From positions 62,001-126,000 of the forward strand of contig JAQWIT010000020.1 in the NCBI GenBank assembly GCA_029248745.1: 64,000 nucleotides of DNA, in the 5' to 3' direction. Of this stretch, positions 42,456-45,800 are shown in pieces. A model generated the notes under the pieces. That model saw only the letters and a list, made by a program, of their open reading frames with translations, did not search any database and was not told where the DNA came from. Source of the DNA: Gammaproteobacteria bacterium. Its GTDB lineage: Bacteria > Pseudomonadota > Gammaproteobacteria > Nitrosococcales > Methylophagaceae. How positions within the stretch are numbered: position 1 is the stretch's first letter; each line of letters begins with the position of its first letter. The position numbers were made by a program, and so were the translations under genes.

Positions 42456-42460
42456 TGGTT
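42456..42460 (+). repeat. Target-site duplication TGGTT (left)
   Basis: 5-bp direct repeat abutting the left inverted repeat; identical copy at 45538-45542. Confidence 0.85.
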
Positions 42461-42484
42461 CGAGACGCGACACATAATGTGAGA
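42461..42484 (+). repeat. Left terminal inverted repeat
   Basis: 24/24 match to the reverse complement of 45514-45537. Confidence 0.95.
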
Positions 42485-42592
42485 CTGTAATATCATATTA
42501 ATCATTATGTTACAAAAGTTAGCGACACAAAAGATGAGTAAGTTCGACACATATTTTGTTCTGAGAGTGCATTTTGCGACACATAATTTGAG
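42467..42592 (+). repeat. Array of four direct end-repeats with core CGACACAtAA..TGAG
   Basis: GCGACACATAATGTGAG (42467-42483), GCGACACAAAAGATGAG (42522-42538), TCGACACATATTTTGTTCTGAG (42544-42565), GCGACACATAATTTGAG (42576-42592). Confidence 0.8.
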
Positions 42593-43112
42593 CACTTGAT
42601 GGCGAGTTAAAGTTTAAAGTGATGAAGCATTAGATTAAATTTAAGGGCTGCTTTCGACCCACAGCGCACGGTGAGGCTCTTAATATCAGTAAAAAAGAAC
42701 CTCAACAATTGGATACATTGGTTGCGCCCTATTATTAAAAACAAAAGTAAAAAATTGAGGATTAAGCGGCTAACATTATTTTTTGTTTTAGTGTCTTACC
42801 ACGGTTCGTCATAATTTGTCGCTTGTGATTATACGATCATAACTACCACGTAGAACAATCTTTAACCTCTAACAGCTAAGCCTTTCAGCGCGGTTGCACC
42901 TCTCGATATAATAAAATTAAATTGCTGTACAAAGAGTGGTTCATTATCTGGATGGAGATATTGATTAAGACATTATTTGAATGTCTCAGTTTATGCTTGA
43001 TTATTTTAGTACACAGAATTAAACTCCGCCGAAGTATCAGAATGAAAGCGAATTTTAATACCCATTTAAAACAAGTGATACTGCTCACCATTACATTTTT
43101 AAAGGCAATAAT

Positions 43113-44144
43113 GTGGAAAAAATAAAATCAAGTTGTATTGTCTCTAGTGGCGCATTTTCTGTTAAAAAATCGGCAATAAAACAATACGATCCTTTTAATA
43201 AGAAGTCTCCAGTTGTCGGCGACCTCGTATTCGGTGAAGTTAGTGCGCTTGGGCATCATCGCGTTATAGAGAGTAAGTCGGGTAGGCAACATACTCTCAA
43301 TATAGGTACGCGGGCAATTTTTGTCTTTGGTAATCGTTATGCTCCTGATCAATTTGAAGGAATAGTTCCTGACTCATCACAGGAATTTGTTGAGCTTTTT
43401 AGTCAAGGTGGTGTAATCGGTGAGGTGAAAACACAAAATCAATTGGTTGGAGTTACAACGAAAATAAAAGTTTTGGGGTACGTTTGTGATAATGAAAGCA
43501 AAGTAATAAACACAACCGATCATGTGCTTATAACTGCAAAGAATGAGACTCGGAACAAAAAAGGATCGAAAATTATTCTCTGTGTTGGTACGACAATGAA
43601 CAGTGGAAAAACTCATGCTGCGGCTGCATGTTGTTATGCACTTTCATCAATGGGGAAAGGTGTCAGAGCCGCGAAAATTACAGGTACGGCGAGCTTAAAA
43701 GACATTTTGTTAATGAATGATTGTGGTGCAGAGCATGTCGCAGATTTCACTTATTTTGGCTACCCATCCACCTATCAGATGAGGGAAGCCCAATTATTGA
43801 GCATGTTTCGCACCTTTGATATGAAGTATGGTAATGATCCAGCAAATTATATTGTTATTGAGTTTGCAGATGGCATATTTCAAAGAGAAACAGCTATGTT
43901 ATTAAAAATGCCAGAGATACGGCAACGTATAAGTAAACTTGTATTTTGCGCCCCAGACTCAACTGCTGTATTTGGTGGTATTCAGGCTTTACGAGATAAA
44001 TTCGGCTTAGTTCCAGATGCTATCTCTGGTTTATGTTCTAGTTCTCCTTTAGCTATACGCGAAATACAAGAGTTTACTGATATTCCTATACTTCAGAGCA
44101 TGGAAAAAGATTATAAAAAAATATTCAGCATTGTAGGAAGCTAA
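43113..44144 (+). CDS. Uncharacterised P-loop NTPase (BioD/MobB-like fold suspected) with N-terminal beta-rich domain
   Basis: 343 aa; Walker A GTTMNSGKTHAAAACCYAL, downstream IVIEFADGIFQRETAMLL; N-terminal VGDLVFGEVSALGHHRVIE...GNRYAPDQFEG. Confidence 0.75.
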   Translation: MEKIKSSCIVSSGAFSVKKSAIKQYDPFNKKSPVVGDLVFGEVSALGHHRVIESKSGRQHTLNIGTRAIFVFGNRYAPDQFEGIVPDSSQEFVELFSQGGVIGEVKTQNQLVGVTTKIKVLGYVCDNESKVINTTDHVLITAKNETRNKKGSKIILCVGTTMNSGKTHAAAACCYALSSMGKGVRAAKITGTASLKDILLMNDCGAEHVADFTYFGYPSTYQMREAQLLSMFRTFDMKYGNDPANYIVIEFADGIFQRETAMLLKMPEIRQRISKLVFCAPDSTAVFGGIQALRDKFGLVPDAISGLCSSSPLAIREIQEFTDIPILQSMEKDYKKIFSIVGS

Positions 44145-44338
44145 TGCGAGGCTCTATGCCTCCTAGAGGAGATATGGATGAAACTATTTTTTCGATGTCT
44201 AAGGGTGGAATGGAACTTTTAGCTTCATAATTCACATTTATAAGTTCACTGACCGATTTTGGCAAAAAAAGCTATCGGGCCTGTATCGGCTTAGGTCTCA
44301 GCGACTACCACTTAGTCGTCATCAAAACCATCAGCTTC

Positions 44339-44554
44339 CTATTCAATTAGTAAATCATCAATAGGCTTAACTTTTTCTACTTCTACAAGTTTAGAAGCTG
44401 GTTTTCCATTAACTTTGCAAAGCTGTTTTTTTGCTGCTTCCCAGCCAGACTTAAACTGTTTCTCAACTTTCTTTTGTTGTTCAGCATCAAGTTCGAGATG
44501 CTGGAGCAGAGTTTGAGGCAGCTCTGGCATTGCAGACGCGCTACCGTTATTCAC
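44339..44554 (-). pseudogene. Gene fragment, C-terminal 3' remnant of unknown function
   Basis: ...ELPQTLLQHLELDAEQQKKVEKQFKSGWEAAKKQLCKVNGKPASKLVEVEKVKPIDDLLIE*; looks like the tail of a larger protein abutting an unrelated fragment at ~44520-44550. Confidence 0.45.
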
Positions 44555-44739
44555 GAGACTTAGAGCCTGCGCTTGAATTTTATGGAGGGCAGAATACCCG
44601 TAGCTTGGGTCCAGTATTAATGGGAGATATAAAGTTTGGTCTAGGCAAAAAGTTACATTGGGAAGCCGGTGTTGTGTTCGGTCTTGATAATAAATCCCCT
44701 GACAATACTTGGCGTTTTTTAACAGAGTATGAATTTTGA
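44524..44739 (+). pseudogene. C-terminal fragment of an outer-membrane beta-barrel-like protein
   Basis: LQTRYRYSRDLEPALEFYGGQNTRSLGPVLMGDIKFGLGKKLHWEAGVVFGLDNKSPDNTWRFLTEYEF*; alternating beta pattern ending in aromatic F. Confidence 0.45.
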
Positions 44740-44797
44740 TGATATTAAGGGTTTCTTAAGTAAGTCTCCCTATGATTAGAGCTCCTTTAATTTAGGA

Positions 44798-45481
44798 GTG
44801 AAATCGATGTCAATCGAAGAAAAGAAAATACTGCCTTTCTCTCAAAAATATAATTCTGAACATGCCCAACAGTATTTTGTAAAACATAATAATGGTTTGT
44901 GGCGACGTCTCTCTAATTGGCGTGATCATCAAGTGGCTAGGAAAGCACTTAATATAGCAGGTGAGCCTCAGACTGTCCTAGATATGCCATGTGGCACTGG
45001 ACGTTTTTGCGCTTTGCTTGCGTAAGACCCAAAAAGAGAAATTCGTATAATGGATTACAGCCAAGATATGATCGATACTGGTATAAAGTTGCGTACCAAC
45101 CCGGTTGTAGAGCGAATTACTAGTCTGGGACAAGGTTCAGCATTTAACATCAAATTGGCGGACAAATCTGTTGAAAATGTTTTTTGTATCAGGTTACTTC
45201 ATCACATTGGCGGACGAGATGATAGACTGAAAGTCTTGTCTGAATTATATCGGGTAAGTACATCAACAGCGATTATTTCTCTGTGGGTAGATGGTAATTT
45301 TAAATCCTGGAAACGCCAGAGGATGGAAAGTAAAAGGTTAACTCGCCAATATCAAAATAGGTTTGTCATACCAAGGAGAGTTATAGAGCAGGAAATGGAA
45401 GCAGTTGGTTTTAAAATAAAAAATAAAATTGATTTTTTGCCCTTATTTTCAATGTGGAGAACTTATATCCTTGAGAAATAA
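44798..45481 (+). pseudogene. Class I SAM-dependent methyltransferase interrupted by one in-frame TAA
   Basis: ORFs 44798-45025 and 45050-45481 share the same frame: ...VLDMPCGTGRFCALLA*DPKREIRIMDYSQDMIDTG.... Only the stop at 45023-45025 separates them. Confidence 0.85.
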
Positions 45482-45513
45482 TAAGGTAATTAGATATTAA
45501 GCTCTGTCGTGAA

Positions 45514-45537
45514 TCTCACATTATGTGTCGCGTCTCG
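45514..45537 (-). repeat. Right terminal inverted repeat
   Basis: Exact inverse of 42461-42484. Confidence 0.95.
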
Positions 45538-45542
45538 TGGTT
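45538..45542 (+). repeat. Target-site duplication TGGTT (right)
   Basis: Identical to 42456-42460. Confidence 0.85.
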
Positions 45543-45800
45543 GACTAGAGCCCTTTTTCTTTATAAAAATATATTCGCATAATATATATTATGTTAAATT
45601 AGGTATTTTACAGCACCCTCTTGTTCAGAAACCGCATTTAATAAACAAAGTCATTAAAACGGTTAAACCAAAATTCGTTTCTTAGGGATAGATAACTACC
45701 CTGGAGTACTCAGATTTTAAATTCTGAATGGCAATACTTGACACACCTACAAGACAGTCATAATCTGCAAGAAACACTTTATTAAGGAAATACATTAAAG

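Follow-up and report, generated by a model that had tools for sequence, protein, structure and literature searches.

Most circular bacterial chromosomes keep a dif site for the resolution of dimers. MITEs, mobile insertion cassettes and transporter IS combine terminal inverted repeats (TIRs) with a passenger gene and are mobilised in trans, and transposons of the Tn3 family have 38-bp inverted repeats starting with GGGG and encode TnpA. Among Tn7-like transposons the configurations of the ends vary widely, and some have tips other than TGT (PMC11406308). The IS1202 family is a DDE family with Tn7-like ends that selects the XerC side of dif; its ISAjo2 group consists of dif-site hunters with 24-26 bp TIRs, TGT/ACA tips and a 5-bp target site duplication (TSD), which insert 3-6 bp from XerC, carry an extra copy of the inner part of the TIR 7-10 bp from each TIR and, in some members, include passenger ORFs (PMC10132070). 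The element described here lies beside a chromosomal dif site and recalls these systems in some features while departing from each of them in others.

Ends, site array and interior of the element

In the window (the whole 64-kb stretch of DNA that was analysed), we read directly a non-autonomous, TIR-bounded element of 3,077 bp at positions 42461-45537. The left TIR (42461-42484, + strand, CGAGACGCGACACATAATGTGAGA) and the right TIR (45514-45537, - strand) are 100% complementary, and the pair is perfect over 24 bp without further extension. The element ends have the sequence CGAGACGCGACACA, and the tips are CGAGAC...GTCTCG and not TGT/ACA. Immediately outside them stands TGGTT, at 42456-42460 on the left and at 45538-45542 on the right, a 5-bp TSD for which there is no empty site as confirmation because the flanks are not conserved among relatives.

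Running inward from the left tip, four copies of GCGACACAtAAtNTGAG in the same orientation start at 42467, 42522, 42544 and 42576, with start-to-start spacings of 55, 22 and 32. The outermost, L1 (42467-42483, +, GCGACACATAATGTGAG), is within the left TIR and is followed by L2 (42522-42538, +, GCGACACAAAAGATGAG), L3 (42544-42560, +, TCGACACATATTTTGTT) and L4 (42576-42592, +, GCGACACATAATTTGAG); L3 is weaker (TCGACACATATTTTGTTCTGAG), its TGAG being shifted by 5 bp. The right end has a single site (45515-45531, -, again GCGACACATAATGTGAG), contained in the right TIR. With up to 3 mismatches allowed, the consensus matched four times in 64 kb, always at the element, compared with an expectation of 0.56 matches; four matches were not reached in any of 100 shuffled sequences. 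In a matrix scan of the 64 kb the five end sites ranked first (18.6-28.0) and the next best place scored 13.1, the absolute scores being partly circular since the matrix was made from the five sites themselves. The four directly repeated left sites of the earlier note are thus upheld, by direct reading and by their top matrix scores. That note had also given the right end one clear and one weak copy; the clear copy is the site in the right TIR, whereas neither the weak one (45497-45512) nor an inverse copy placed at 42811-42824 is among the best-scoring sites within the element. No significant DNA fold and no Rfam match were found in the left array.

The only intact gene of the element (43113-44144, +) encodes a 343-aa P-loop protein, distantly DUF1611-like and without a Pfam match. 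Its relatives on plasmids share 26-35% identity, and two of them are annotated as DUF1611. Relatives with 60-82% identity occur in Gammaproteobacteria MAGs and in contigs assigned to cyanobacteria, Chloroflexi (Anaerolineae), KSB1 and Sabulitectum (L040-L049); such identity across contigs assigned to distant phyla suggests that the DUF1611-like family has been spreading horizontally, and seemingly recently. The other genes are broken: a 3' fragment of a small host-type gene (44339-44554, -; homologous to L205 6272-6649 and L204 2954-3349), a 3' fragment of an envelope-protein gene (44530-44739, +; matching a 259-aa gene in L024) and a Methyltransf_11 methyltransferase gene with an in-frame stop near 45023 (44798-45481, +; intact relatives in L207 and L208). 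Intact relatives of all three occupy separate loci in the genus. Open reading frames and a Pfam search revealed no transposase gene within the element, which also contains no replication gene. Matches at 42657-42713 and 44214-44263 were considered as transposase remnants and rejected; they are pieces of the intergenic repeat targeted by IS30. A copy of this repeat, host-type, REP-like and forming a hairpin, occupies 42649-42713 and is free of IS in the window. Elsewhere, IS30-type elements sit in the same hairpin-type intergenic repeat in L125 (742-1968) and L007 (from 1693).

A second left end and a neighbouring dif site

Another species of the same genus (genome G012) carries the left end of the element. 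The first 198 bp from the tip are 97% identical and include all four sites, with order and spacing kept. The homology starts exactly at 42461, and because the DNA in front of the tip is unrelated, the boundary can be set at this position. The remainder of the element and its flanking DNA have no match in G012, and the left end has therefore moved as a unit. After 198 bp the G012 copy is broken by an IS30-type element, inserted within the hairpin-type intergenic repeat, and the contig then stops; the right end was not found in this assembly. Taken together, the matched TIRs, the TSD and the absence of a transposase in the window, with the left end present also in G012, identify a non-autonomous TIR element with a passenger gene.

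On the right, the element is adjoined by the chromosomal dif (45572-45599, +; TATTCGCATAA-TATATA-TTATGTTAAAT), an adjacency that is new here and was absent from the earlier note. The site matches the dif pattern exactly, is the only match in the 1.73-Mb assembly at up to 2 mismatches, and is where the cumulative GC skew peaks and reverses. The half turned towards the element is that of XerC, at 34 nt from the right tip of the element and 29 nt past the TSD. The chance of landing within 34 bp on either side of a single site in 1.73 Mb is about 4e-5, a figure computed after the fact. Insertion directed by dif is a reasonable reading, drawn from one clear example.

The dif site is visibly beside the window's copy only. 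In G012 the left end lies 7.8 kb beyond holB-pilZ-tatD-tesA, genes which are also found to the left of the element and dif in the window, and the G012 contig that carries dif runs on to phhB, as in the window. This places both copies in the same terminus region, the two G012 contigs being joined by inference only. In a further genome (G003) different genes follow the orthologous MCP gene; going by this gene order, the G012 copy may be several kb away from dif.

The flanks of dif are mostly unrelated among relatives and are freely replaced by unrelated DNA in the genus. Three genomes (G012, G003 and G001; L131, L141 and L147) nevertheless have a common type of block, TTCTCATNNNTGACGNAATTCTCATCCTTAATGACGTTCTACA, whose final ACA lies 33-37 nt from the XerC half of dif. 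The block has repeated CTCAT/TTAATGACG, with a second copy 883 bp farther out in G003, and could be either a conserved dif-associated motif or the ends of sister elements, and a partner end for it did not turn up. When up to 20 kb upstream of dif in relatives was scanned for inverted-repeat partners of the 120 bp on the XerC side, no clear pair of TIRs emerged, and we therefore do not claim a general rule of docking at 34 nt.

Other features were seen around dif. A perfect palindrome, TCAGATTTTAAATTCTGA, stands at 45710-45727 of the window. In a sister genus (L158-L170) similar palindromes occur beside dif and are accompanied, about 90 nt away on the XerC side, by a dif-like accessory block, TTTGTCATAACGCATATTATNNGAA, and on the opposite side by GTGAGTACTTA. 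In G030 (L153) and G012 (L131), restriction-modification-like gene sets adjoin dif on the XerC side, and the last gene before dif is a related gene of about 300 aa.

Transposase searches and likeness to known families

We looked for an enzyme that might mobilise the element. The genome of the window has no TniQ and no Mu-transpos_C gene, and its only rve match is a 133-aa fragment, with no intact gene. Searching 369 genomes of the class for the TIR with up to 3 mismatches returned this element only, and searches of viral contigs, plasmids and phages with the array or the TIR returned nothing useful; one viral contig (L191) with a single exact site was set aside, as a second strong site was absent. 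Within the genus, TniB/TniQ genes are confined to G008 (L129, C18, a 3.7-kb contig) and a TnsB/TniA-like frame, of 549 aa, to G002 (L211, C353). These genes are all partial, and the two contigs, both short, show no matching ends. A 559-aa rve protein of G008 was rejected as a candidate, being Mu-like and surrounded by phage genes. No autonomous relative of the element was found, and the TnsABC/TniABQ locus with matching ends that the earlier note proposed to look for did not appear in the genus, the class sample, the viral contigs, the plasmids or the phages.

The element shares with the ends of Tn7-like and TniABQ (Tn5053, Tn402) transposons several same-orientation sites of about 20 bp, unequal ends, a 5-bp TSD, a terminal 6-8 bp outside the first site and a target outside one end (PMC11406308). 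It differs from them in its CGAGAC tips, where TGT...ACA is typical with known exceptions, in having four sites on the left and only one on the right, where multiple sites are expected at both ends, and in the lack of tns/tni genes: neither the element nor its own genome encodes TnsB/TniA with TnsC/TniB and TniQ partners. We do not assign it to the Tn7 or Tn5053 family because these defining proteins, right-end multiplicity and the usual TGT/ACA tips are missing. Like the IS1202/ISAjo2 elements, it has its position on the XerC side of dif, a 5-bp TSD, a comparable TIR length and an internal repeat of part of the TIR; unlike them, it lies 34 nt and not 3-6 bp from XerC, has non-TGT tips and a larger left array (four sites at 22-55 bp spacing), and is without their transposase of about 400-500 aa. 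The element does not match the Tn3 family, since it has a 24-bp inverted repeat, a CGAGAC start and no TnpA. It resembles MITEs, mobile insertion cassettes and transporter IS in combining TIRs with a passenger gene, and is set apart from them by its asymmetric multi-site left end and its adjacency to dif.

How the element may have moved

Our preferred explanation, to which we assign a probability of about one half, is a non-autonomous, passenger-carrying TIR element that a DDE transposase, TnsB/TniA-like in its working, recognised through several copies of GCGACACAtAAtNTGAG and mobilised in trans, inserting it beside dif. The outermost copy within each TIR would set the point of cleavage, and the three extra copies would distinguish the left end from the right and, as in TnsB arrays, provide places for further transposase protomers. 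Insertion would have occurred beside dif with a 5-bp stagger, and the simplest cause of the location would be an attraction of the transposition machinery to dif or to dif-bound Xer proteins. Mobilisation in trans by a TnsB/TniA-type enzyme, as suggested in the earlier note, is plausible from the sequence: the unequal arrays, the outermost site in the TIR, the 5-bp TSD and the want of an internal transposase all fit, while the failure to find a cognate transposase or autonomous partner, the single right-end site and the non-TGT tips speak against it.

Some of these features would also fit movement by an ordinary family of DDE IS whose TIRs are simple and whose TSD is 5 bp long; nested or repeated capture of ends would then have left the extra left copies behind, and the proximity to dif would be a coincidence or reflect the insertion tolerance of a gene-free spot. 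The perfect 24-bp TIR and the tips without TGT agree with such a history, for which one right-end site suffices, as does the free exchange of dif flanks for unrelated DNA in the genus. Yet the extra copies, irregular as they are, are conserved in spacing between two species and share one orientation, and they are not preceded by the repeated TIR tips (CGAGAC) expected from nested ends; we regard this history as rather unlikely, though deserving of attention. Descent from dif hunters of the IS1202/ISAjo2 type in a broad sense, by loss of a transposase that contacts XerC at dif, would account for the 5-bp TSD, TIRs in the range of 24-26 bp, an extra inner-TIR copy, the XerC side of the chromosomal dif and, from some members, passenger ORFs (PMC10132070). 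We nonetheless find it improbable, given the distance and tips noted above, four left sites at 22-55 bp spacing where those elements have a single extra copy 7-10 bp from each TIR, and a genome with no such transposase. Still more improbable is that the repeats serve a regulator, of the passenger gene or of a former plasmid, as operator or iteron-like sites. The left sites do precede the passenger gene by about 500-650 bp, but one copy is inside each TIR, the right one far from the start of that gene, the spacing is irregular and there is no replication gene.

A bolder version of the preferred reading, movement in trans by a TnsB/TniA-like enzyme, would make the element a member of an undescribed lineage of dif-seeking transposons in this bacterial family, with TnsB-like multi-site ends, CGAGAC tips and docking about 34 bp from the XerC half, perhaps sensing Xer-bound dif in the way that Tn5053 senses resolvase-bound res. 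We consider such a lineage unlikely on present evidence; the ACA-ending blocks of G012, G003 and G001 could be the ends of its sister elements. If the attraction to dif is true, transposons with elaborate ends would use dif as a safe harbour, at a spacing unlike that of the known dif-hunting insertion sequences. Why the arrays at transposon ends are asymmetric could be asked of a transposase-less copy such as this one, a compact natural substrate whose ends are sharply unequal, and its place next to dif calls for a test of dif sensing.
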